64,000 bases of DNA from Bacteroidales bacterium. Its GTDB lineage: Bacteria; Bacteroidota; Bacteroidia; Bacteroidales; F082. The notes under the pieces were generated by a model. That model did not search any database. It was not told where the DNA came from and saw nothing but the letters and a program-made list of their open reading frames with translations. The stretch covers positions 1-64,000 of the forward strand of contig JAGBQJ010000038.1 of the NCBI GenBank assembly GCA_017632935.1, read 5' to 3'. Position numbers and translations under genes: made by a program. Positions 3,827 to 15,575 of the stretch are shown piece by piece (within the stretch, counting starts at the first letter, position 1; every line of letters begins with the position of its first letter).

Positions 3827-3934
3827 TTTGTCTTAGAGTTGAGTTTTGGAGTGCAATAATACAGAAATTGGAGGAATTCTTTTCCTCACAATTGCCTTTT
3901 TTTATAAACAAATCAAAACAAGGATAATTTTCAC

Positions 3935-3942
3935 TATTTTTG
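3935..3942 (+). promoter_or_regulatory. Candidate -7 promoter box of the restriction operon
   Basis: TATTTTTG fits the Bacteroidota TAnnTTTG -7 consensus and lies about 78 bases before rhuM. No convincing -33 box was seen. Its position suggests that the present operon begins at rhuM, with no gene upstream in the same unit. Confidence 0.45.
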
Positions 3943-4020
3943 CAGCATATCATACTCTCTGATAGAATTGTATGAGAAAATAAATGTCATATTTGATGAC
4001 TATTTGATAAAAGAATAACA

Positions 4021-5043
4021 ATGGACCAAAAAACAGAAAACACCGGCGACATCATCATTTATCAAACCGAGGACGGTTTGACGAAGATCAATGTGAAATT
4101 GGACAATGATACCGTCTGGCTCAACCAGCAACAAATGTCTGAACTATTTCAGAGTTCTAGGACCAATATTGTTGAACATATTAAACACATATATGAAGAG
4201 GGGGAGCTTACCTTAGAATCAACTTGTCGGAATTTCCGACAGGTTCGCCTAGAGGGCAATAGAGAGGTTAGTAGGGAAATTCCTTTTTATAACCTCGACA
4301 TGATTATATCGCTTGGCTACCGTATAAAATCGGCTATTGCCACGCGTTTCCGCATTTGGGCAACGCAGCGACTGAAAGAATATATGGTCAAAGGTTTCAC
4401 CATGGACGATGAACGGCTAAAAGGCAACGGTGGCGGTAATTATTGGAAAGAGCTGCTTGACCGCATCCGCAACATCCGTTCTTCTGAAAAGGTGCTGTAT
4501 CGTCAGGTGCTTGACCTCTATGCCACCAGTGTGGACTACAACCCTAAAAGCGATGAATCCATTCTGTTTTTCAAGATGGTGCAGAACAAGCTACACTATG
4601 CAGCCCATGGTCATACCGCCGCCGAAGTTATCTATGAGCGTGCCGCTGCCGACAAGCCTTTTATGGGACTGACCACATTTTCAGGAGAAATGCCAGCATT
4701 AAAAGACATAGGCATTGCCAAGAACTATTTGAATGAAAACGAGTTGAAGATTTTGAACAATCTTGTTTCGGGTTACTTCGACTTGGCTGAAATCAATGCG
4801 CTTGAGCACAAACCTATGTACATGAGCGACTATATCAGGCAATTGGATTCGGTGCTCACCTCTGGCAACAGACCGTTGCTCGAGGGGCCTGGCTCTGTAA
4901 GCCATGTACAAGCCTTGGAGAAAGCTACCGCCGAATACCGCAAATACCAAAGCAACACCATCTCACCCGTTGAGGAAGCCTATTTGGAAACCGTGAAAGC
5001 AACGGCCAAATTGGTGAAGAAAAACGCAAAAGGAAAGAAATGA
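4021..5043 (+). CDS. rhuM: RhuM family protein, type I restriction-associated
   Basis: 340 residues. The opening 'IIIYQTEDGLTKINVKLDNDTVWLNQQQMSELFQSSRTNI' region and the 'RFRIWATQRLKEYMVKGFTMDDERLK' segment are diagnostic of the RhuM (virulence protein RhuM) family. The N-terminal part resembles a winged helix-turn-helix unit. These genes are often found inside type I restriction loci between hsdM and hsdS; their role there is not established. Here the stop overlaps the hsdS start (ATGATG), so the two are coupled. The expected hsdM neighbour upstream is absent: the preceding gene is an unrelated phosphatase on the other strand. Confidence 0.85.
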   Translation: MDQKTENTGDIIIYQTEDGLTKINVKLDNDTVWLNQQQMSELFQSSRTNIVEHIKHIYEEGELTLESTCRNFRQVRLEGNREVSREIPFYNLDMIISLGYRIKSAIATRFRIWATQRLKEYMVKGFTMDDERLKGNGGGNYWKELLDRIRNIRSSEKVLYRQVLDLYATSVDYNPKSDESILFFKMVQNKLHYAAHGHTAAEVIYERAAADKPFMGLTTFSGEMPALKDIGIAKNYLNENELKILNNLVSGYFDLAEINALEHKPMYMSDYIRQLDSVLTSGNRPLLEGPGSVSHVQALEKATAEYRKYQSNTISPVEEAYLETVKATAKLVKKNAKGKK

Positions 5044-6164
5044 TGAACGAACTAAACATAGATAAAACCCACTGGAAGAAATACAGGTTTGGAGATGTTG
5101 CCATCCAAACGAAGGATGTGGTCGATATTGAAAATACCAACCTGACTCGATATGTTGCAGGAGAACACATGGGTTCCGAAGATATTCATATTAGAAAATG
5201 GGGTACTGTTGGTGATGGCTATTTAGGACCGGCATTCATTCGTAAATTTAGCAAAGGTGACATACTTTATGGTTCAAGAAGGACATATCTAAAAAAAGTT
5301 GCCATTGCTGATTTTGATGGTATCACCGCAAATACTACTTTCGTGATAAAAGCCAATGAAAAGTTGATAGAACCAGTTCTTCTTGCTCATCTTATGTTGA
5401 GCCATAATTTCACCGAGTATTCGGTAACCAATTCGAGAGGTTCTGTGAATCCTTACATCAACTGGAAGGACATTGCCGACTACGAATTCCTCCTCCCACC
5501 CAAAGCCGAGCAGAAACGCCTGGCCGAGCTGCTCTGGGCTGCCGATGAGGTGGTGGAGAAGGAGAAGAGGGAGATGGAGAGAATGGAATATTTCAGAAAA
5601 CTCACATTTGAGCAGCATACTTCAAAAAAAGCAAACGTGAAACTTGAAAATTGCTTAATTGTCAAAAAGAGAAAAAGCAAAGCACCTCATACTTTTGACA
5701 AATATATTGGTTTGGAGCATATCGAAAGCGGTTCTTATTTTACTACCCAAAACGGTGACCCACAAGATGTACTTGCTGATAGCTATATTTTTCAGAAAGG
5801 CGATTTGTTATACAGTAAATTAAGACCCTATCTGGATAAATGTATTATTGCGGATTTCGATGGAATTTGTTCAACCGAAATAATTGTTTATGATACGAAG
5901 CCAAATACATCTAAAGAATACATGTTAAATGTTTTGCATTCAAAGGCATTTTTAGATTACATAGTTGACAAATCATTTGGAACCAAAATGCCTCGTGTCT
6001 CACACGAACTTGTTTCTGACTATGAGTTATATTTACCTTCTATAGATGAGCAAGAAAATATTTTGGCCACTATTGGAAACATCATAAAGCAAGAGAAGAG
6101 AATTAGAGAGCAAATTGCTCTTTCACAACAGATAAAGCAGGAATTAATCAATAAAATATATTAG
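5040..6164 (+). CDS. hsdS: Type I restriction-modification specificity subunit S
   Basis: 374 residues with the usual two target-recognition domains (about 1-145 and 195-330), each followed by a helical spacer ('PPKAEQKRLAELLWAADEVVEKEKREMERM' and 'PSIDEQENILATIGNIIKQEKRIREQ'). It selects the DNA sequence recognised by the methyltransferase and restriction complex. The first conserved spacer is GC-rich (near 5490-5580), whereas both recognition domains are AT-rich, a mosaic expected from domain swapping. The last 30 or so bases, including the stop region, are repeated at 7374-7410. No second hsdS or inverted hsdS fragment was seen, so there is no sign of phase inversion in this window. Confidence 0.92.
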   Translation: MMNELNIDKTHWKKYRFGDVAIQTKDVVDIENTNLTRYVAGEHMGSEDIHIRKWGTVGDGYLGPAFIRKFSKGDILYGSRRTYLKKVAIADFDGITANTTFVIKANEKLIEPVLLAHLMLSHNFTEYSVTNSRGSVNPYINWKDIADYEFLLPPKAEQKRLAELLWAADEVVEKEKREMERMEYFRKLTFEQHTSKKANVKLENCLIVKKRKSKAPHTFDKYIGLEHIESGSYFTTQNGDPQDVLADSYIFQKGDLLYSKLRPYLDKCIIADFDGICSTEIIVYDTKPNTSKEYMLNVLHSKAFLDYIVDKSFGTKMPRVSHELVSDYELYLPSIDEQENILATIGNIIKQEKRIREQIALSQQIKQELINKIY

Positions 6165-6170
6165 TTATGA
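6134..6170 (+). repeat. hsdS tail repeat, copy 1
   Basis: The 3' end of hsdS plus the following spacer and ATG. The same 37 bases recur at 7374-7410 with two mismatches. This first copy belongs to the intact hsdS and runs into the start of the protease gene. Confidence 0.85.
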
Positions 6171-7168
6171 AACAAGATCGAATTCCTTTGTACCAAGAAA
6201 TTGAATCAAGAAGAAACTCAAAATTACTTGTGTATTATACAAGTACAAGACAAGGACTTGAAACTCAAATAGCTAAAGATGTATTACCTAAATTCTCCAA
6301 TCAATTAGATAATATTGGTGATACAAAAAAAATCTCATTGTTTTTATACACAAATGGAGGTGACACTTTAGCAGCATGGAGTTTAGTAAACTTAATCCGT
6401 AGTTTCTGCAAAGAATTTGAAGTAATAATACCATCAAATTGTTTTAGCTCAGGAACATTGATTTGTCTAGGAGCCAATAGGCTTATTATGACAAAACAAG
6501 CAGCTCTCGGCCCGATAGATCCCAGTATTAACGGTCCTTTAAACCCTATGATTCCTGGGATTCAGAATCCAAACGCAAAAGTTCCTGTTAGCGTGGAGTA
6601 TGTTAATGCTTACATTGAGATGGCGAAAAAGGATTTTGGCATAACAGATCAAAAAAATCTAACTGAAGTATTACTTCATTTATCAGATAAAATTCATCCA
6701 TTGACTTTAGGTCAAGTTTACAAATCTAAGAGTCAGATTCAAATGATTGCTCGCAATTTAATGAAGTATCAAAAAATAAACAAGGAAAAAACAGATACAA
6801 TAATTAAGTTTCTTTGCAGTGAATCAGGAAGTTATGATTATTCTATTCGTCGAGACGAGGCTATTAACAATTTGGGGATCAATGTTGAGAAACCATCGAT
6901 GGAATTGTATTCAATAATAAAACAAATACACGATGACATTAGTGCTGAACTTGAGTTAGAGAAACCATTTGAACCCATGATACTATTAAATAATGCAAAA
7001 CAGCCAAATCATCCATATTCATTTAGACGTGGGCTTATTGAATCCATTATGGATACGGAGGTGTTTATTAGTGAAGGTAGTTTGGTCAAAATTCAAGACC
7101 CAAGAACAGGACAATTATTACCAAATGATAATAGAACTTTCGAAGGTTGGAGACACGAAAATCAATAA
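6167..7168 (+). CDS. SDH-type Clp-fold serine protease (SppA/ClpP-like)
   Basis: 333 residues, no signal peptide. The ClpP/crotonase-like core is visible: 'LFLYTNGGDTLAAWSLVNLI' (residues 58-77, oxyanion strand with NGGD), then 'NCFSSGTLICLGANRLIMT' (91-109, with the likely nucleophile Ser94 or Ser95), then 'LGPIDPSIN' (114-122). This order matches the serine dehydrogenase proteinase (SDH) family. The gene starts two bases after the hsdS stop and is much more AT-rich than the flanking hsdR, consistent with recent acquisition. Its place inside a restriction operon suggests a defence or regulatory role, which is inference. It could cleave a phage or host protein once triggered; the target is unknown. 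Confidence 0.75.
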   Translation: MKQDRIPLYQEIESRRNSKLLVYYTSTRQGLETQIAKDVLPKFSNQLDNIGDTKKISLFLYTNGGDTLAAWSLVNLIRSFCKEFEVIIPSNCFSSGTLICLGANRLIMTKQAALGPIDPSINGPLNPMIPGIQNPNAKVPVSVEYVNAYIEMAKKDFGITDQKNLTEVLLHLSDKIHPLTLGQVYKSKSQIQMIARNLMKYQKINKEKTDTIIKFLCSESGSYDYSIRRDEAINNLGINVEKPSMELYSIIKQIHDDISAELELEKPFEPMILLNNAKQPNHPYSFRRGLIESIMDTEVFISEGSLVKIQDPRTGQLLPNDNRTFEGWRHENQ

Positions 7169-7173
7169 ACGCT

Positions 7174-7341
7174 ATGGAAGAATCAGGATATAATCCAATT
7201 ATACAAACCACGACAGGTGATAGTAGTAATTACTACAATAATGATTCGTCATCTTTACAAACCTCAAAGATTGAATTATTAAAATACGAATTATCAATTA
7301 ATTATTCAAATAATCCAATCATAATAGACACTTGTCCTTAA
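7174..7341 (+). CDS. Small protein of unknown function following the protease
   Basis: 55 residues from an ATG five bases after the protease stop. It is rich in Ser, Asn and Tyr, with one short hydrophobic-charged helix (about 30-42). No family is recognised. Its last two codons and stop lie inside the hsdR-start remnant: the TAA arises because the remnant has A where hsdR has C. The original C-terminus may therefore have been different. It may be a partner of the protease, but may also be an unselected reading frame. Confidence 0.4.
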   Translation: MEESGYNPIIQTTTGDSSNYYNNDSSSLQTSKIELLKYELSINYSNNPIIIDTCP

Positions 7342-7363
7342 ACGAAATAAACGCAGTGGAAAA
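7333..7363 (+). pseudogene. Remnant of the hsdR start
   Basis: 31 bases match the first 31 bases after the A of the hsdR ATG (9691-9721) with a single mismatch. The ATG itself is TTG here. It is followed within a few bases by a copy of the hsdS tail. This marks an earlier hsdS/hsdR junction left between the two cargo modules. Confidence 0.85.
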
Positions 7364-7373
7364 AACAACAAAC

Positions 7374-7410
7374 AAAGCAGGAATTAATCAATAAAATATA
7401 CTAATTATGA
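7374..7410 (+). repeat. hsdS tail repeat, copy 2
   Basis: Repeat of 6134-6170 with two mismatches in 37 bases. It carries the final codons of hsdS and the short leader, and places the ariA start codon in the same position that the protease start has after the real hsdS. Confidence 0.85.
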
Positions 7411-8786
7411 GCACCAAACCATTTATAAAAAAGTATTCAATATCCAATTTGTTTGGATATAAAAACTTTGAGTTATCCTTTGATGACAATATTAAGATTC
7501 TAATTGGAGAAAACGGGTATGGCAAAACAACCGTTCTAAACTCTCTATCATTTTTACTCAAGGGGGAGTATAAAAATCTATCTCGCATCAAGTTCTCAGA
7601 GATCAGAATCGAATTTGACGATTCTCACAATTATGAGTTTTCTTCTAATGATTTGAAATCATATGTACAATATCTTGATAAACAAAAAGAAGGAGAGGAT
7701 GGAATTATTTCATATATAAACCACCGATTGGAACCTTCAGAATTAACTCAATTAATCAAATTGGTCTATACAAACAAAGATGAGGTTATTGAAACAATAA
7801 AAAATAATGATATTCTTAATGGTATCCCATCTAGTATTGTATATCAAGCATTATTAGAATTGTCAGAAAGAACCAATAAATATAAAGTATTTACAGACAT
7901 AGCCACTTATGTGAATAGCACTGGATACAAGATCCTATACTATCCTACATATAGAAGAGTTGAGGTTGATCTGAAAAACATAATGAACAACATATCTCAC
8001 AATACAAGAAGAGGATTTAGGAACGAACAAGACGAATTGATGAATGATAACACCATCATTAAATTTGGAATGAGTGATGTAGAAAAACGAAGGGACAAAA
8101 TATGTGAGGAAATCAGACGATCTTCGATATCTGGTTTTGCTGCTGTTTCTGGAGGTATGATTAGCAAATTACTTGATCAAAATTTCAGCAACACAGAATG
8201 TCATAATTTTGACATTAACGAGATAAAAATTGTTTTGAGCCGAGTTGGTGAGAATATGTCTCAAAACGACAAAGACACGATTCTATCACAAATATCATCA
8301 GATCCTTCATTAAATCAACAGAATTCTTATTTGAGGTATTTCCTTGATCAATTGTTATCGGTATATAAAAAGCAAGAAAAATATGACACAGCCATTAAAC
8401 AATTTGTAAAAACATGTAATAATTACCTATGCGACAAAGAGTTTTCATATGACGAAAGTGCCGTAGATTTAAAATTACATAGAAAGAACAATGCTATAAA
8501 ACCTGAAAATCTTGAATTAATTCAATTAAGTTCAGGCGAAAAACAGATTGTTTCAATTTTCTCGCAATTATATTTAGAGCCAGATAAAAAATATATCGTA
8601 TTATTTGACGAACCGGAACTTTCCCTATCCATTTATTGGCAAGAAAAGCTATTACCTGATATGCTGGATTCCGGACGATGCGTATTTATGCTAGCCGTTA
8701 CTCATTCACCATTTATTTTTAACAATGATCTTAAAGCCAATGTTGCTGGATTAAAAGAGTTTATGAAAAATGGAACAGAAAAATGA
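7407..8786 (+). CDS. ariA: PARIS-like AAA ATPase (AriA)
   Basis: 459 residues. ABC/AAA_15/21-type ATPase: Walker A G34-ENGYGK-T41-T42, a signature 'LSSGEKQ' at 374-380, Walker B 'IVLFDEPELSLS' with D401-E402, and a switch His433 in 'THSPFIFNN'. It overlaps by 17 bases the DUF4435 gene downstream. An ATPase of this type and size paired with a DUF4435 protein of about 300 residues is the arrangement of PARIS. In PARIS, AriA forms a scaffold that holds AriB until a phage anti-restriction protein such as Ocr is sensed. Location inside a type I restriction operon fits that logic well. An OLD-like or other ATPase/Toprim defence pair is the main alternative. Confidence 0.78.
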   Translation: MSTKPFIKKYSISNLFGYKNFELSFDDNIKILIGENGYGKTTVLNSLSFLLKGEYKNLSRIKFSEIRIEFDDSHNYEFSSNDLKSYVQYLDKQKEGEDGIISYINHRLEPSELTQLIKLVYTNKDEVIETIKNNDILNGIPSSIVYQALLELSERTNKYKVFTDIATYVNSTGYKILYYPTYRRVEVDLKNIMNNISHNTRRGFRNEQDELMNDNTIIKFGMSDVEKRRDKICEEIRRSSISGFAAVSGGMISKLLDQNFSNTECHNFDINEIKIVLSRVGENMSQNDKDTILSQISSDPSLNQQNSYLRYFLDQLLSVYKKQEKYDTAIKQFVKTCNNYLCDKEFSYDESAVDLKLHRKNNAIKPENLELIQLSSGEKQIVSIFSQLYLEPDKKYIVLFDEPELSLSIYWQEKLLPDMLDSGRCVFMLAVTHSPFIFNNDLKANVAGLKEFMKNGTEK

Positions 8787-9687
8787 TTTTACCTCGGAAT
8801 CCTTTTTGAGCAAACTTGAAAGCACTTTAACCGTCCCTTTTCAAAGATTTGTATTATTGACAAACTCTTATGGGACTAATCGTCTATATTGCTTTGTTGA
8901 AGGACATGATTTACCATATTATAGTATAAGAATAGAAGCGATTTCCGGTATAACTTGTTCATGTATTGATTCTGGTGGAAAGAAGAATGTCATTGCGGTA
9001 AATGATTTTATTAGGCAAAGGAATGATTATTCCAATTACAAAATTCTATATATGGTTGATCATGATTATGATGACAACAGCAACATACATTCTTCAATAT
9101 ATGTAACGCCATGTTATTCGGTGGAGAATCTTTATAGAGTAGATAATATCATCGAAAAACTATTTGGATTGCTACCTGGAGATTCGAATTATTTAGCTAT
9201 TAAAAGTTTTATTGACGAAAAGCGCAATGAATTTATTAGTGACATTTCTACATTTTGTGCATGGTATTACTGTGTGAAGAAAAAAGAAAGAGACACTTCT
9301 ATCATTAATAAGATCAATTTGGAGGAAAATATTGATTCAAGTTATCTTGAATATAATAATGATGAAAATGGATTTTCTATAACATCACACTATTCATTAA
9401 CTCAGCTTAATTCTGATTTTGGAACGAGCATTTCTCAAGATGAGTTGTCGGATGGTTTAAAATATATCAATCATGACATAAACCACATTAGAGGTAAATA
9501 CATATTTCAGTTTATTGAAAAACTTATAACATTTTTTAATAGCGATTCTTCAAAAAAAGGTCCTCATAGATTTATAAAATCACCGCTCGGTATTAATGTC
9601 GATCGCAAAAAACTAATGACAACAATAAATGTTATTGCCGTTACGCCAAAATGCTTAATAGAATATGTAAATAAATTTGTTGTATAA
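8770..9687 (+). CDS. ariB: PARIS-like DUF4435 Toprim nuclease (AriB)
   Basis: 305 residues. The N-terminal half has the DUF4435 pattern: a strand ending in the acidic E44-G ('FVEGHD'), then 'ILYMVDHDYDD' with D97 and D99, then 'YSVENLY' with E119. These acidic positions correspond to the metal site of Toprim-like nucleases. In characterised PARIS systems AriB is released by AriA and cleaves host tRNA, stopping phage growth. The stop lies two bases before the hsdR ATG, so the gene is embedded in the operon. Base composition is AT-rich, like ariA and unlike hsdR. Confidence 0.76.
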   Translation: MEQKNDFTSESFLSKLESTLTVPFQRFVLLTNSYGTNRLYCFVEGHDLPYYSIRIEAISGITCSCIDSGGKKNVIAVNDFIRQRNDYSNYKILYMVDHDYDDNSNIHSSIYVTPCYSVENLYRVDNIIEKLFGLLPGDSNYLAIKSFIDEKRNEFISDISTFCAWYYCVKKKERDTSIINKINLEENIDSSYLEYNNDENGFSITSHYSLTQLNSDFGTSISQDELSDGLKYINHDINHIRGKYIFQFIEKLITFFNSDSSKKGPHRFIKSPLGINVDRKKLMTTINVIAVTPKCLIEYVNKFVV

Positions 9688-9689
9688 TT

Positions 9690-12650
9690 ATGTCCTTCAA
9701 CGAAATAAACGCAGTGGAAAACTTCGTCATCCATACGATGACGGGAGTGAACTTGAACGAGAGCAACATGGCGCATGAAGCGGTGGCTCCCTACGGGGCG
9801 CAGTGGGAGTACTTGCCCGCCACGGAATTGCCGCGCGAGATTACCGAGGTGATGGTGGAAACGGAAGTGAAAAAGGCCCTCGTCCGCCTCAACCCCGAGA
9901 TTGCCGCACAGCCCGAACGCGCCGACGAAGTCATCTTCAAGCTGCGTTCCATCCTGCTGTCGGTCCACAGCACCGGCCTCGTGCGCGCCAACGAGGAGTT
10001 CGCCGAGTGGCTCAAAGGCAACAAGACCATGCCCTTTGGCAAGAACTATGCCCACGTGCCCGTCCGCCTCATCGACTTCGAGCATATCGCCAACAACAAG
10101 TTCCAACTGGTCAACCAGTTCAGCATCCGCAACCGCGAGACCAAACGCCCCGACATCGTGCTGTTTGTCAACGGCTTCCCTTTGGTGGTGGGCGAAACCA
10201 AAACACCTGTCCGCCCATCCGTATCGTGGCTCGATGCCGCCTCCGACATCCACGACGGCTACGAGAACAGCGTGCCGGAACTCTTTGTGCCCAATGTGTT
10301 CAGCTTCGCCACTGAAGGACGCGAGTTGTTTTATGGTGCCGTGCGTACGCCGCTGGAATTCTGGTCGGCATGGCGGCTCAACGAGGGCTGCGAAGATTCG
10401 GAAATGCCTGGCTTGGATAATGTTTCCGCCGAGATGCGGCAGTTGCTGTCGCCCAAGACCCTGCTCGACATCCTCTACAACTTCACCACCTACACCACCA
10501 ACAAGAGCCGTCAGCGCATCAAGGTGGTATGCCGCTACCAGCAGTACGAAGGTGCTAACCGCATTGTGGAGCGCGTGCTGGAAAACAAAATCAAACGCGG
10601 TCTGATATGGCACTTCCAAGGCTCGGGCAAGTCGCTGCTGATGCTCTTTGCCGCACAGAAGATGCGCCGTATGCCCGAACTGAAAAGTCCCACGGTGATG
10701 ATTGTGGTGGACCGCATCGATTTGGACTCACAGACGCAGAATGTTTTCAAGGAGGCACCCAATGTGATGCCCACGGAAGACATCGAAACGCTGAACAAGT
10801 TTTTGGAGAACGATGCCCGCTATATCATCATCACCACCATCTTCAAATTCAAGGACGCCAAGCCCAACATCAACCGCCGTGACAACATCATCGTGATGGT
10901 GGACGAGGCGCACCGCACGCAGGAAGGCGACCTCGGTCAACGGATGCGTGCTGCCTTGCCCAACGCTTTCTTCTTTGGCCTGACGGGAACGCCTATCAAC
11001 AAATCGGAGCACAACACCTTCTGGACTTTCGGCGCACAGGAAGACAAAGGTGGATACATGAGCCGCTACTCCTTCGAGGACGCCCTGCGCGACAACACCA
11101 TTCTGCCGCTGCATTTCGAGCCGCGCCTGTTGGACATCCACATCGACCGCGATGCCGTGGACGAGGAGTTTGAACGCCTCTCCAACGAACTGGACGAGGA
11201 CGCCAAAATCACCCTCAGTAGCAAGGCCGCCAAGATGCTGGAGTTTTTGAAATCGCCCGAGCGCATACAGATTGTCTGCAAAGACATCGCCGAACATTAT
11301 CGCGACAAGGTGGAGCCACAAGGCTTCAAAGCCATGATTGTCACGCCCGACCGCGAGGCCTGCCATCTCTACAAAATGGAGTTGAGCAACTACTTCCCTG
11401 ATTCCGCCTCGGCAGTGGTCATCTCCACTTCGGGCAAAGGCGAGGACGAGCTGAAACGGCTCTACAGCCTCACCAAAGACGAGCAGGAAAAGGTGATCGA
11501 GAAATTCAACAAGCCCGATTCGGAACTGAAATTCTTAATCGTCACCGCCAAACTGCTCACGGGCTTCGACTCGCCCATATTGCAGACAATGTATTTGGAC
11601 AAATCGTTGAAAGACCACACTTTGTTACAGGCCATCTGCCGCACCAACCGCAAGTTCCCGAATAAGACTTTCGGTCGCATTGTGGATTACTTCGGTGTGT
11701 TTGATGATGCCGCCAAGGCTTTGGAATTCGATGAGGACGTAATGAAAAAGGTCATCACCAACCTCAACGACTTGATTAACGAACTGCCGCAAGCCATGGC
11801 AGACACGCTGTCGCATTTCGAAGGCGTGGACCGCACCGTTGACGGCTTCGACGGTTTGCAAGCCGCACAGGAAGCCATCAATACCAACGAAAAGCGTGAT
11901 GCCTTCGCCGCCGACTATCGCCGTCTGTCCAATATTTGGGAGTCGCTTTCCCCCGACCCTGCTTTGGAACCCTATCGCGTGGACTACAAATGGCTTTCCA
12001 ATGTCTATCAATCCGTTAAACCTTCTGGACCTGATGCTTTGGGCAAACTGATTTGGCTCTCCTTGGGCGCACAGACCAAGAAAATCATGTACGACAACAT
12101 CCATGTAGCAGGTATCCATACTGACATGGAGGAGGTGATATTGGATGAAATGATGGTCTCGACTTTGATGGGCAACAAGGATATGAAGGCTGCCAAACGA
12201 ATGGAGCGTGAGCTTATCAAGCGTTTCAAGAAACATGCCGACAAGCCGAAATTCATCGAATTGAGCAAACGCCTGGAAGCCCTGCGTGACAAAGCCGAAC
12301 AAGGACTGATTTCGAGCATCGAGTTCATCAAGGAACTTTGTCAGATTGCCCGTGAAACCTTACAGGCCGAGAAACAGGAAGCCGAGGTGGAAGTCCGCAA
12401 AACCGGCAAAGAAGCTTTAACGGAGTTATTCTTGGAACTTCGCACCGAAGACACACCTGCCGTAGTGGGCCGCATTGTCGCCGATATCGATAGCATCGTG
12501 AAGGTGGTCCGTTTCCCTGGTTGGCAAAATACCAATGCGGGTGAACGCGAAGTGCAGAAAGCATTGCGCAAGACCCTGTTAAAGTACAAGTTGCACAAAG
12601 AAGAAGCATTGTTTAATAAGGCTTATATGTATATTAGGGAGTACTATTAA
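9690..12650 (+). CDS. hsdR: Type I restriction enzyme subunit R
   Basis: 986 residues, a normal length. The N-terminal nuclease domain has D155 in 'RPDIVLFVNG' and E169-T-K171, the PD-(D/E)xK site. The translocase motor follows: Walker A 'GSGKS' at 311-315, DEAH at 405-408, 'TGTP' soon after, and 'ICRTNR' as motif VI. Residues beyond about 830 form the helical C-terminal part that docks on the methyltransferase. HsdR needs HsdM and HsdS to restrict DNA, and no hsdM is present in this window. The gene is GC-rich compared with the cargo just before it. Its first 31 bases after the start are duplicated at 7333-7363. Confidence 0.95.
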   Translation: MSFNEINAVENFVIHTMTGVNLNESNMAHEAVAPYGAQWEYLPATELPREITEVMVETEVKKALVRLNPEIAAQPERADEVIFKLRSILLSVHSTGLVRANEEFAEWLKGNKTMPFGKNYAHVPVRLIDFEHIANNKFQLVNQFSIRNRETKRPDIVLFVNGFPLVVGETKTPVRPSVSWLDAASDIHDGYENSVPELFVPNVFSFATEGRELFYGAVRTPLEFWSAWRLNEGCEDSEMPGLDNVSAEMRQLLSPKTLLDILYNFTTYTTNKSRQRIKVVCRYQQYEGANRIVERVLENKIKRGLIWHFQGSGKSLLMLFAAQKMRRMPELKSPTVMIVVDRIDLDSQTQNVFKEAPNVMPTEDIETLNKFLENDARYIIITTIFKFKDAKPNINRRDNIIVMVDEAHRTQEGDLGQRMRAALPNAFFFGLTGTPINKSEHNTFWTFGAQEDKGGYMSRYSFEDALRDNTILPLHFEPRLLDIHIDRDAVDEEFERLSNELDEDAKITLSSKAAKMLEFLKSPERIQIVCKDIAEHYRDKVEPQGFKAMIVTPDREACHLYKMELSNYFPDSASAVVISTSGKGEDELKRLYSLTKDEQEKVIEKFNKPDSELKFLIVTAKLLTGFDSPILQTMYLDKSLKDHTLLQAICRTNRKFPNKTFGRIVDYFGVFDDAAKALEFDEDVMKKVITNLNDLINELPQAMADTLSHFEGVDRTVDGFDGLQAAQEAINTNEKRDAFAADYRRLSNIWESLSPDPALEPYRVDYKWLSNVYQSVKPSGPDALGKLIWLSLGAQTKKIMYDNIHVAGIHTDMEEVILDEMMVSTLMGNKDMKAAKRMERELIKRFKKHADKPKFIELSKRLEALRDKAEQGLISSIEFIKELCQIARETLQAEKQEAEVEVRKTGKEALTELFLELRTEDTPAVVGRIVADIDSIVKVVRFPGWQNTNAGEREVQKALRKTLLKYKLHKEEALFNKAYMYIREYY

Positions 12651-12659
12651 CGCAAAACA

Positions 12660-15575
12660 ATGAATACAACAAGAATAATAAAGTGCTTAATTGCTTCACC
12701 AGGAGATGTAGCCAAAGAAAGAGATGTTTGTGAAGAAGTTTTTGATGAAATCAACCGTGAGTTAGGCGATTTATTGAACATTCGAATTGAATCAGTTCGT
12801 TGGGAAAAAGATGCCCGTGCTGGATGTGGTGAGTATGTACAAGAAGTCATTAACCAACAATTTGAAGGCCGCTACGATTTGTTTTTGGGCATCATGTATT
12901 CACGATTTGGAACGCCAACACCAGTAGCAGGTTCTGGAACTGAAGAAGAGTTTGATAATGCATATTCAAAAAAGCAATTAGGAGAGGTTGACGACATTTT
13001 GTTTTACTTTAATAACGCTCCAATTCCACAAGAGATCTTAGACACGAAGCAATACGACAAGGTACTGGAGTTCAAAGAACGATTGAAAGAACAAAATGTT
13101 TATTTCAAGCAATACAATGGCACAGAAAATTTCAAGCCTTTTTTGAAGGATGAATTGACACTTTATTTCCGTCAGAAATATGCTGATAAAGGGAAAAGCA
13201 AGGGGAAAAGCACAAACAAAAAACTGAAAGAAAAGATTGTATTGCAAAAAGCTGCTATTTATGATTATAGACTTGTTTGGCAAGAAGCAATAGATCGACT
13301 ATATGAGGAAAAGAAGTTGTCAAAAATTGTAATAAAGATAGAAAAACAAAAGAAAACAAATCGCTATAACAAAATCATTTATCCACAGGAGAATATTATT
13401 AATCAATTGCTAAGGAAGGATTCGTTCAGCAAAGACGATGCTTCTTTATTTGCAATCGCCGTTAACGATTGCGGCATAAATCCCTATTACTATTCCAAAG
13501 TTATTCATGACTATGAAGAATTGGACAAATTACCTCTATGGAATCTTTTGAAAATAAAAGAAAACACTTTTAATGGCGACGATGCTTTGTGTCAAGATGA
13601 TAGCGATGAGTGTGTTTATGAGAACATCCAAAGACTATTGTTCCATTTAGACTTTGAAAAAGCAAACAAGCGAATTGAAAGTTGGACTCCCAAAAGTGGT
13701 TTTATCACACATAAAGCCATGAGGCTTGCGACAATCAATGGCTGCCAAGACATGGCAAAACAGTTGCTTGACAATTATATTTCAAAAGAAACAAATCCTA
13801 TTGCGAGTTTGTATGCCAAGCAAATTGCTAACTATATTTCCGGACAATATCCTCGACCATATAAATTCGATGAGTATTATAGATTTGGATTAGATGGCAT
13901 CGGCGACAATCTGAATTATATGGTTCAGCAATTGAGAGGCTCTCTTGAAAAGCCAAAATATAGAGGATGGATTGGATCAACGACAAATTTTGGAGGGAGC
14001 AATCCTAACTACGAAAAGAGCCTTCGTATTCTTCGTTATATTTCTGATGTAGGAATTTATACCAGCCTCCGTTTCACTTCTTTTTTTGATGTAGCGTCAT
14101 GGTATCTTGTGTTTCAGAATCTTTATAAAGAATTCCCGTACCCTTGCTTTTTCTATTCCATCCAATACAGCGACAATAATGTATTAACGCGAATAGGCCA
14201 AGATTTTGCTTATTCACCCAAGTTGTTGGATTTCAATAAAGACATTCTAATACGCTCATTGAATGCTATGGGGCATGAGTCCATGCCAGTTGATTTAGTT
14301 GGCGGTCTATTGAGGGTTACTGGACCAATATATATGGCTGTTGACGAAAGAGAATGGTTTGAGTTGTTCAAAGCAAATGTTTTTGATAAGCTTATTAACA
14401 ACTACGATAAATTAGATATTTCTGCGCCTTTGGTAAAAAATATAGCTAATGCGTTAGTAAGTTTGAAGAAACATAAGAATATTGTTTGCATTCTGTCAGC
14501 CCTATTATCTCATTATCGAGAAAACCACAAACTGACGGACATTCTGATTAGAGACAATTTGCATATCAAGTATATCAAAGATATGCCTGATGAAATAGAA
14601 AACATGCTAATTGGTCTAATTGGAGATTATCCAAACAATGACATTACTGAATTGATGTATGTTTTGGATAAAGAAAATCAATTAGCAGAGGCAATACGGT
14701 GTCAGTTTATTAAGCGGGTATCAGAAATCGCTTTGGATGAGTTACCTCAAGGACTCGCTTTGTCACTATATTTATGTCTTCTCTGTAAAAGTGATTCCGA
14801 AACAATGAAAAAGGCAAAAACTCATTTGCTTAATCATGACATCTGGCATTGTGGAGTAATGGAAAACTGCAAAGGATGGTCCGCTCCTAATTATCTTCGT
14901 CTTAATGCATTGAAGGTTGAAATCGAATGGACTGATGATGAATTCAAGCATATTTGTGAGAATTTGGAAAACAATATTCAAAGGTTTAATGAAGCTGATG
15001 ATATGCTAGTTAAAAGTCCGTTTGGAAGGAATATTCAAACACAGTATTTGTCTGATATTTTAAGGTTTATTGATGGGCAAAATGAAGAAAGAAAAGAGTT
15101 GTTATTGAGTGTTCGAAACAAAACGGAAAAACTGCTTCAAAACCGAATTTCATATAAGAATCTTATTGAAGGTATGTTATCCGAACAACCTGCAGATATT
15201 GATAGTATTATGGATGACGTAATGCATGGGATAGACGCGCAAGGTTTATCAATGTATTTGGATGAATTTAATTTCATACTTGATAAAGCTATTGTTGGAG
15301 AGGGGACTACTATCAATAGAATGTTGGAGTTAATACGTTGTGTCGTTAACGAACATCCTAACGAAATAATTGACTTGAATCTAAGTGGCAAACTCCATGT
15401 GTTATTATCAATCTATAAAGACCGTTGGTCGACACTTCAGGAGTTTAAGCCGGTATGGTCTTTCAACTATTTACACTCTATAGCAAGTTTTTTGCGAGAC
15501 AATGGATACAATAGTTCTGATGTGGTTTCCTATTGGTTAAATGATTCTTTTGTTAAATTGTTTATTAGAGTTTAA
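12660..15575 (+). CDS. Large DUF4062 protein, candidate defence effector
   Basis: 971 residues, nine bases after hsdR. Residues 1-105 are a DUF4062 domain: 'IIKCLIASPGDVAKERD', 'IESVRWEKDARAGCG' and 'YDLFLGIMYSRFGTPTP' are its typical motifs. This domain has a TIR/nucleoside-processing-like pattern and is found at the front of several NLR-like and other defence proteins. The remaining 850 residues are mostly helical. No Walker A motif, transmembrane segment or obvious nuclease motif was found, which separates it from the STAND-NTPase users of DUF4062. It is AT-rich like the cargo genes. A sensor-effector role is inference from domain and location. Confidence 0.65.
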   Translation: MNTTRIIKCLIASPGDVAKERDVCEEVFDEINRELGDLLNIRIESVRWEKDARAGCGEYVQEVINQQFEGRYDLFLGIMYSRFGTPTPVAGSGTEEEFDNAYSKKQLGEVDDILFYFNNAPIPQEILDTKQYDKVLEFKERLKEQNVYFKQYNGTENFKPFLKDELTLYFRQKYADKGKSKGKSTNKKLKEKIVLQKAAIYDYRLVWQEAIDRLYEEKKLSKIVIKIEKQKKTNRYNKIIYPQENIINQLLRKDSFSKDDASLFAIAVNDCGINPYYYSKVIHDYEELDKLPLWNLLKIKENTFNGDDALCQDDSDECVYENIQRLLFHLDFEKANKRIESWTPKSGFITHKAMRLATINGCQDMAKQLLDNYISKETNPIASLYAKQIANYISGQYPRPYKFDEYYRFGLDGIGDNLNYMVQQLRGSLEKPKYRGWIGSTTNFGGSNPNYEKSLRILRYISDVGIYTSLRFTSFFDVASWYLVFQNLYKEFPYPCFFYSIQYSDNNVLTRIGQDFAYSPKLLDFNKDILIRSLNAMGHESMPVDLVGGLLRVTGPIYMAVDEREWFELFKANVFDKLINNYDKLDISAPLVKNIANALVSLKKHKNIVCILSALLSHYRENHKLTDILIRDNLHIKYIKDMPDEIENMLIGLIGDYPNNDITELMYVLDKENQLAEAIRCQFIKRVSEIALDELPQGLALSLYLCLLCKSDSETMKKAKTHLLNHDIWHCGVMENCKGWSAPNYLRLNALKVEIEWTDDEFKHICENLENNIQRFNEADDMLVKSPFGRNIQTQYLSDILRFIDGQNEERKELLLSVRNKTEKLLQNRISYKNLIEGMLSEQPADIDSIMDDVMHGIDAQGLSMYLDEFNFILDKAIVGEGTTINRMLELIRCVVNEHPNEIIDLNLSGKLHVLLSIYKDRWSTLQEFKPVWSFNYLHSIASFLRDNGYNSSDVVSYWLNDSFVKLFIRV

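Follow-up and report, generated by a model that had tools for sequence, protein, structure and literature searches.

A probable swap slot for defence modules between hsdS and hsdR of Bacteroidales type I restriction operons

Why should the start of one restriction gene and the end of another lie fused together between unrelated genes? The question was raised by a type I restriction-modification (RM) operon of a Bacteroidales bacterium (F082; GCA_017632935.1, contig JAGBQJ010000038.1, positions 1-64,000, a stretch of 64,000 nucleotides referred to here as the window), in which the genes are ordered RhuM, hsdS, SDH protease, small open reading frame (ORF), joint, AriA, AriB and hsdR, all on the plus strand. 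Two cargo modules, an SDH protease module (6167-7341) and a PARIS-like AriA/AriB pair (7407-9687), occupy the interval between hsdS and hsdR, and the fused repeat, termed the joint, lies between them. The explanation that we favour, with a probability of about 0.8, is that the hsdS-hsdR junction is a swap slot within the operon, that modules are exchanged there in place via conserved flanks, and that the joint is a scar left when one module was stacked on another. It rests on filled and diverse junctions in relatives, from double cargos that are sums of modules found elsewhere, from the joint itself and from the signs of exchange in place.

The joint and the contents of the slot

The end of hsdS (6134-6170) was repeated at 7374-7410 with two mismatches, a match that extended to 46 nt (6125-6170 against 7365-7410, 91% identity), and the start of hsdR (9691-9721) recurred at 7333-7363 with 1 mismatch in 31 nt. 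Local-alignment scores were 28 for the hsdR-start copy (head) and 26 for the hsdS-end copy (tail), against maxima of 11 and 14, respectively, when the slot was shuffled 60 times; the repeats are real and greatly exceed chance. An earlier interpretation of the DNA letters alone (the sequence-only reading) had reported both duplications, and its coordinates and mismatch counts were confirmed, as was its order of hsdS end, cargo 1, hsdR remnant, hsdS-end copy, cargo 2 and hsdR. Head and tail abut (7363/7365) and form one joint, running from hsdR nt 1-32 through the hsdS tail into the ariA start codon, which can also be described as a 32-nt hsdR-start piece plus ~40 nt of hsdS end at 7332-7404. 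By alignment, its first half (7332-7363) is a copy of hsdR nt 1-32 with TTG in place of ATG, and its second half (7365-7410) is a copy of the hsdS tail that reaches into the start codon of ariA. The corresponding originals, the conserved final ~40 nt of hsdS (6125-6170) and the hsdR start (9690-9721), would be the left and right anchors of the slot. The two-part joint occurred once in the window's genome, where the other matches were the hsdS end and the hsdR start themselves. Among 173 family genomes, the full joint was found in the window alone; genome G071 matched over 62 of 85 nt, and the remainder gave single ends or short matches.

When a collection in which each species is represented by one genome was scanned, 23 relatives' loci with a related hsdR were obtained (given L numbers). 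Seventeen of these had complete junctions, with hsdR 86-98% identical to that of the window in the best segment, and formed a set of 18 together with the window. The loci left out were L053, L059 and L067, in which hsdS lies beyond the contig, L063, in which the hsdR start is replaced, and L064, whose contig begins within hsdR; L066 (hsdR 52% identical, empty junction) was counted separately. Some loci recurred by genome in other scans and do not count as extra evidence (L047 = G071, L050 = G080, L056 = G046, L058 = G079, L065 = G127 and L061 = G444). Modules were typed by mutual comparison and with Pfam and PADLOC; those of L067 were typed via their similarity to L054 and L050, as were the second members of other shared pairs via the first.

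All 18 complete junctions were filled, with 15 module types including those of the window. Besides the SDH protease pair and PARIS in the window, the slot held a 248+139-aa pair with no Pfam match (L047, L061), an OLD-like module (L047, L068), Septu (L048, L065), a 645-aa ATPase (L049, L055), an Mrr-type nuclease (L050, L067), an Mrr-NACHT-like module whose Mrr and NACHT matches were under the Pfam cut-offs (L051, L060), a 536-aa AriAB-like ATPase (L052), a nucleotidyltransferase-TIR protein (L052, L060), SIR2-HerA (L054, with the HerA end also in L067), a 567-aa protein without a family (L056, L069), Hachiman (L058), AbiC (L062) and Kiwa (L069). The slot of L057 contained only IS200-type transposase ORFs and short unmatched ORFs, and is possibly an eroded allele. 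Non-RM genes that vary among relatives were thus present between hsdS and hsdR, the arrangement of an embedded-defence slot. These contents support the proposal of the sequence-only reading that accessory defence genes are swapped at this junction, and the junctions with other genes that it predicted were found with many module types. Since single-cargo junctions were common, the pattern that it had named as contradicting it, in which relatives always carry both modules and never a single cargo, was not observed.

The gaps from cargo to hsdS and to hsdR were mostly 1-5 nt (17 loci measured). On the hsdR side, the exceptions were 200 nt in L048 and 101 nt in L051 (a repeat element lies there), 12 nt in L060, 9 nt in L065, 7 nt in L052 and an overlap in L056; on the hsdS side, they were 12 nt in L051 and overlaps in L049 and L062. 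Given this tight spacing and the shared strand of the modules, which fill the interval from the hsdS stop to the hsdR start, the hsd promoter probably drives their expression.

Double cargos proved to be sums of modules seen in other loci. L047 carried the module of L061 followed by that of L068, L060 the module of L051 followed by one common to L052, and L069 the module of L056 followed by Kiwa; L067, outside the set of 18, carried the module of L054 followed by that of L050. Single-cargo counterparts were therefore available for both halves of L047 (L061, L068) and L067 (L054, L050), and for the first halves of L060 (L051) and L069 (L056). For the window, L047 and L069, significance was reached by both halves of the joint; in L060, only the head half reached it. 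The head copy ended at nt 32-33 in all four; the tail copy, recognisable in three of them, began at nt 3. Further, CAACAAACAAA was common to the joints of the window, L047 and L069 and was present in 0 of 19 hsdS tails. The simplest reading of these shared features is that the joint goes back to one founding event. The same presumed scar was shown by alignment to lie now between different module pairs; L047 and L069 carry it between other cargos, and for this reason the joint is likely to be an old scar, common to these loci, that predates the present cargos of the window.

The tail copy ends a few nt from the start codon of the second cargo in the window, L047 and L069, as would be expected if it were kept solely as a translation start region for the next cargo and the repeats were functional leaders. 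This account leaves the adjoining hsdR start unexplained, and the tail was not significant in L060, L052 or L067. In addition, neither a head nor a tail copy was detected at p<0.05 at any of 10 control sites upstream of second genes inside modules. We therefore consider the leader account very unlikely.

Several further observations concern the slot and its surroundings. The two IS200-type transposase ORFs in the slot of L057 (8683-9996) were identical, and one of the copies was scanned. No integrase family was found among the slot and neighbouring proteins scanned; one slot, that of L057, contained IS200-type transposases. In L052 (9091-9993) and L060 (9080-9988), a nucleotidyltransferase was fused to a CAP12/Pycsar-type TIR domain in a protein of ~300 aa, a candidate defence protein. 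In L063 (3865-6552), another reading frame, ATPase-like by eye, replaced the 5' third of hsdR and was fused in frame to it. A second variable slot was located between hsdM2 and hsdS, where RhuM, Schlafen/AlbA_2, AbiEi-AbiEii or Fic was found (L048 4996-6792, L060 3885-5336, L061 5710-7601, L057 6304-7170), and in a subfamily with an hsdR of 60% identity, genes were also present between hsdM1 and hsdM2 (L078-L082). An hsdR scan of viral contigs and a scan for the joint pattern gave no matches to the operon in viruses; on plasmids, 25 records were obtained at E 1e-100, all below 60% identity (best 48.6%).

Probable exchange of modules in place

The window and L047 share a chromosomal site. The 10 kb from the hsdR start onward were 89% identical and the upstream DNA 81%, and RhuM and parts of hsdS aligned at 86-88%. 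Between hsdS and hsdR, the sole in-register match was 62 nt of the joint (7333-7394; 87%, BLASTN, E 1e-5, plus strand), which is bordered on both sides by unrelated modules in the two genomes. Further syntenic pairs with different cargo were L048/L051, L054/L069 and L062/L068.

The extent of exchanged DNA was visible in pairs that share a module. In L048/L065, the module was 99.2% identical at the nucleotide level and the preceding 46 nt were 100% identical, while the next 100 nt upstream were 61% identical; the corresponding values in L049/L055 were 95.4%, 93.5% and 58%. In 115 pairs without a common module (16 loci; L057 and L050, which has too little upstream DNA, were not included), the 46-nt tail averaged 75.7% (maximum 91.3%) and the next 100 nt averaged 63%. 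This comparison shows that the left boundary of the two most recent exchanges lies, as far as alignment can place it, within the last ~46 nt of hsdS; farther upstream, hsdS is unrelated in both pairs. The hsdR genes of L049 and L055 were only 81-83% identical, so that their module has passed from one backbone to another.

In a tree built from the initial ~1400 nt of hsdR, the window, L047, L060 and L061 formed a clade (support 99/99) with three different first modules and with three different second modules or none; L069, which bears the joint, was placed in another clade. Taken together, the synteny, boundary and tree results indicate that modules move and that both positions turn over while the joint stays.

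These results suggest the following route. At a fixed chromosomal site, modules would be exchanged in place, as the comparison of loci indicates, by homologous recombination, presumably through RecA, in two conserved flanks: the last ~40 nt of hsdS, just past the variable recognition domain, on the left and the hsdR start on the right. Stacking of one module on another would have fused hsdR at about codon 11 to the hsdS tail and left the scar. Since the scar holds copies of both anchors, it could later have served as an internal anchor, and each of the two positions could be exchanged independently. The short fused repeat between stacked modules thus suggests that they are separately swappable.

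A number of findings weigh against the swap slot as described. Five pairs have a first module in common, yet the block bounded by the hsdS tail was seen in just two of them, those with the most similar cargo; in L047/L061, L051/L060 and L056/L069, the cargo was 80-93% identical and the tail 70-74%, the level of unrelated pairs. In L052/L060, which have a common second module, hsdS upstream was also alike (86-93% in three segments; baseline of 99 pairs from 15 loci, with L050, L051 and L062 out), and hsdS may have moved or stayed with the cargo. Silent sites in hsdR codons 1-11 differed in 0.191 of codon pairs, and later 11-codon windows averaged 0.345 with a minimum of 0.132, which points to only modest conservation of the hsdR start. 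The empty, protease-only and ATPase/DUF4435-only (PARIS-only) junctions that the sequence-only reading had also predicted were absent from close relatives: empty junctions occurred only in L080 (hsdR ~62%) and L066 (52%), and relatives of the protease were found elsewhere only. The joint was clear in three genomes only; its tail half was not significant in L060 (p=0.118), L052 showed a weak head-like trace (p=0.004) with a tail at p=0.146, and L067 showed neither half (head p=0.484, tail p=0.088). An independent origin of the joint in L069 is possible. Moreover, duplications of the hsdR start of different lengths and without an hsdS tail were present in L048 and L051 (42 nt) and L081 (57 nt), so that a head duplication can also arise otherwise.

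Finally, all close relatives are, according to their record titles, metagenome-assembled genomes or uncultured isolates, as would suit the view that the joint is an assembly chimera of two strains' alleles in a metagenome. The same joint was nevertheless recovered from separate genomes (the window, L047 = G071 and L069, with the head half in L060), and the copies were diverged rather than identical, which makes a chimera the least probable of the accounts considered here.

A strongly conserved DNA element at the hsdR start was also considered and was set aside, being weakly supported by the silent-site comparison.

Origin of the joint

Several routes would give such a joint. The sequence-only reading had proposed that two operons of the same type recombined in tandem. 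In its recent form, tandem operons with different cargo would have existed in this lineage, and one deletion from hsdR to hsdS would have joined the two cargos now in the window. Such a fusion yields exactly the observed order, and L056, in which hsdM1-hsdM2 stand directly behind hsdR, is laid out in a permuted or tandem-like way. The joint was found with the same breakpoints between other cargos in L047 and L069, however, and is probably older than the window's pair; unrelated cargo at both of its positions is already seen across species, in the window and L047. In addition, no two complete tandem operons were present in the stretches examined (upstream of 21 loci, and 4.5 kb past hsdR in the window and 18 loci). 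Tandem recombination therefore fits as one of several routes to the order of parts, and as a recent event that brought these two cargos together it is unlikely.

An alternative is a one-sided illegitimate insertion, in which the hsdS tail of an incoming hsdS-cargo-hsdR fragment provided pairing at one end, and a microhomology shared by hsdR nt 32 and the hsdS tail allowed the other end to be joined. An overlap of one to two bases at the junction, judged by eye, agrees with this, as does the start of the tail copy within 2-3 nt of the point from which different hsdS alleles are similar. The final sequence would be the same as that from the tandem-deletion and circle-integration routes, and we give this alternative somewhat less than an even chance. 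It is compatible with the swap slot as the route by which the joint was founded, for which we likewise suggest an illegitimate join involving an overlap of one to two bases.

For the swap slot, a wider consequence can be put forward tentatively, with the odds somewhat against it: the joint may be a reusable exchange site, and the operon a cassette array free of integrase, in which ~40-nt copies of the operon's own gene ends let single modules be gained, stacked, replaced or lost and which can outlive the modification genes, as in the window. If so, the RM operon would become a pure carrier of defence modules, and would remain unbroken by module turnover.

An integron-like attC or other folded site at the joint was rejected, as six folds of four joints were no better than shuffles (z -0.88 to 1.67).

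Other arrangements of the hsdR start were noted. In L048 (9810-9969) and L051 (9205-9898), a 42-nt hsdR-start copy is followed by a GC-rich repeat element ahead of the true hsdR start; the two copies adjoin different cargos, and in L051 a DUF559 gene accompanies the element. In L081 (hsdR ~60% identical), a 57-nt hsdR-start copy was located directly behind hsdS, ahead of the cargo (8771-8828 of the reversed locus). Among the seven loci of the subfamily with 60-63% hsdR identity that contain both gene ends, one was empty (L080) and one had this 57-nt copy (L081), and no internal copies above shuffles were detected in the remaining five.

Known systems and the genes of the window operon

Defences nested in multi-gene defence operons are reportedly the subject of a 2024 preprint by Payne et al. 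on guilt by embedding, a general concept like the one described here. In EcoprrI, PrrC lies between hsdS and hsdR. Cargo in this position is already known. PrrC is a toxin-type defence gene embedded in the type IC RM operon EcoprrI, where it guards against anti-restriction (PMC3874165, PMC12707154); the window operon resembles EcoprrI in this layout and guard logic, whereas the slot of the present family holds many unrelated modules, single or stacked, with a common repeat joint. The families listed for the scanned cargo did not include PrrC. In Campylobacter jejuni, variable ORFs termed rlo separate hsdR from hsdS and others termed mlo separate hsdS from hsdM (PMC5183652, citing Miller et al., 2005), the same variable-ORF layout; the available portion describes no joint, tail-bounded block or stacking. 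In the RRDM island of Escherichia coli, DarTG2 lies between hsdS and hsdR at a site called a potential recombination hotspot, and the portion at hand names two cargo kinds and describes no duplicated flanks. TgvAB, a two-gene defence system, is located between hsdS and hsdR in the type I RM cluster of VPI-2 of Vibrio cholerae (PMC11411939), and differs in being one cargo described, in that portion, in one lineage. No published account of a shared joint of hsdR start and hsdS tail, or of exchange blocks that the hsdS tail delimits, was found in the literature searched, and the exchange boundaries and the stacking joint appear to be new.

The family comes from gut and rumen bacteria, and the slot differs in module in most species examined. 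Closely related restriction operons, some at one chromosomal site, hold unrelated modules, and are thus traces of the exchange of immune modules; in the two most recent exchanges, the left boundary is sharp to tens of bases, which gives a concrete and testable route by which bacteria might be re-armed. The slot is also a way to find new defence genes, as it is where the known systems Kiwa, Hachiman and Septu sit; candidates so placed are the 248+139-aa pair, the 567-aa protein, the SDH-protease pair and the nucleotidyltransferase-TIR protein. Further, stacked modules can retain a readable record of earlier exchanges.

Both hsdR (9690-12650; Pfam HSDR_N 3e-32, SWI2_SNF2 6.2e-68; PADLOC REase_I 4.5e-128) and hsdS (5040-6164; Pfam Methylase_S 8.6e-18; PADLOC Specificity_I 3.1e-89) of a type I RM system were present in the window. 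The RhuM-family gene (4021-5043; Pfam PF13310 1.8e-105; PADLOC PDC-S05) is the cargo of the hsdM-hsdS slot. The first cargo gene between hsdS and hsdR encodes an SDH-type ClpP-like serine protease (6167-7168; Pfam PF01972 2.6e-16), whose S-x-G-T-L motif was retained in five relatives, and is followed by a small ORF (7174-7341; 55 aa from its ATG). The protease relatives came from five other genomes (four in the order sample, one in the family). An ORF of similar length followed the protease in four of the five, the fifth being cut by the contig end, and the small ORFs showed weak mutual sequence similarity; cargo 1 looks like a two-gene module of protease and small ORF. None of the five protease relatives adjoined a gene of this hsd family in the visible stretch, three of them being cut on one side by a contig end.

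The second cargo consists of an AriA-like AAA ATPase (7407-8786; PADLOC AriA 2.7e-29, best of 95 families; Pfam AAA_21/AAA_15) and an AriB-like DUF4435 protein (8770-9687; Pfam DUF4435 1e-23; PADLOC AriB 6.5e-23, the sole match), which corresponds to the PARIS effector. As PARIS (AriA-AriB) has the same pair of an adjacent AAA_15/AAA_21 ATPase gene and a DUF4435 gene, cargo 2 is, by its gene families, a PARIS-like module. GENGYGKTT and VDHDYDD were visible in the translations, and we take them to be a Walker A and a Toprim motif, respectively. Published PARIS systems respond to an anti-restriction protein such as Ocr with tRNA cleavage, and the pair in the window would be predicted to be a guard of this kind, sensing anti-restriction proteins. 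PARIS was described from the P4-satellite hotspot, whereas the window pair lies within an RM operon. No AriB relatives beyond the window were detected in the 173 family genomes, and two were detected among 393 order genomes (29-32% identity).

The third gene of a type I RM system, hsdM, was absent from the window locus. In relatives, two tandem hsdM-sized ORFs were located upstream of RhuM or its substitutes (13 loci with upstream DNA compared), and both members of the pair scanned, that of L047, were hsdM. In the window, both hsdM genes were missing from the stretch upstream of RhuM (3827-4020), and the hsdS and hsdR ORFs were open. Within that stretch, 20 nt (3935-3954) were identical to the DNA just upstream of hsdM1 in L047 (BLAST E 0.004) and contained TATTTTTGC, which we take to be a Bacteroidota-type promoter motif; this segment may be the retained upstream end, and perhaps the promoter, of an operon whose two hsdM genes are gone. 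The window genome, which is 92% complete, gave four PF02384 matches. Searched against it, hsdM1 and hsdM2 of L047 gave one weak match each (23% and 27% identity, E 8.9e-4 and 2.4e-5), and direct comparison with the four PF02384 loci gave at most 26% identity; no orthologue of either gene was found elsewhere in this genome. Because HsdM is required for type I restriction (PMC11411939) and both hsdM genes are absent, restriction by the window operon has probably been lost and the cargo kept, so that the operon may now exist chiefly as a carrier from which the cargo is expressed.

Two tandem hsdM genes (about 491 and 486 aa) ahead of one hsdS, as in L047 (1783-4709) and, as ORF pairs of like size, in other loci, seem unusual. 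L056 (378-9096) contained a permuted operon in the order hsdS, cargo, hsdR, hsdM1, hsdM2. Downstream of the window operon, a gene encoding 971 aa (12660-15575) begins 10 nt past hsdR and matched PADLOC PDC-S60 over residues 5-177; its counterpart in L047 stands in the same place and is 79% identical.

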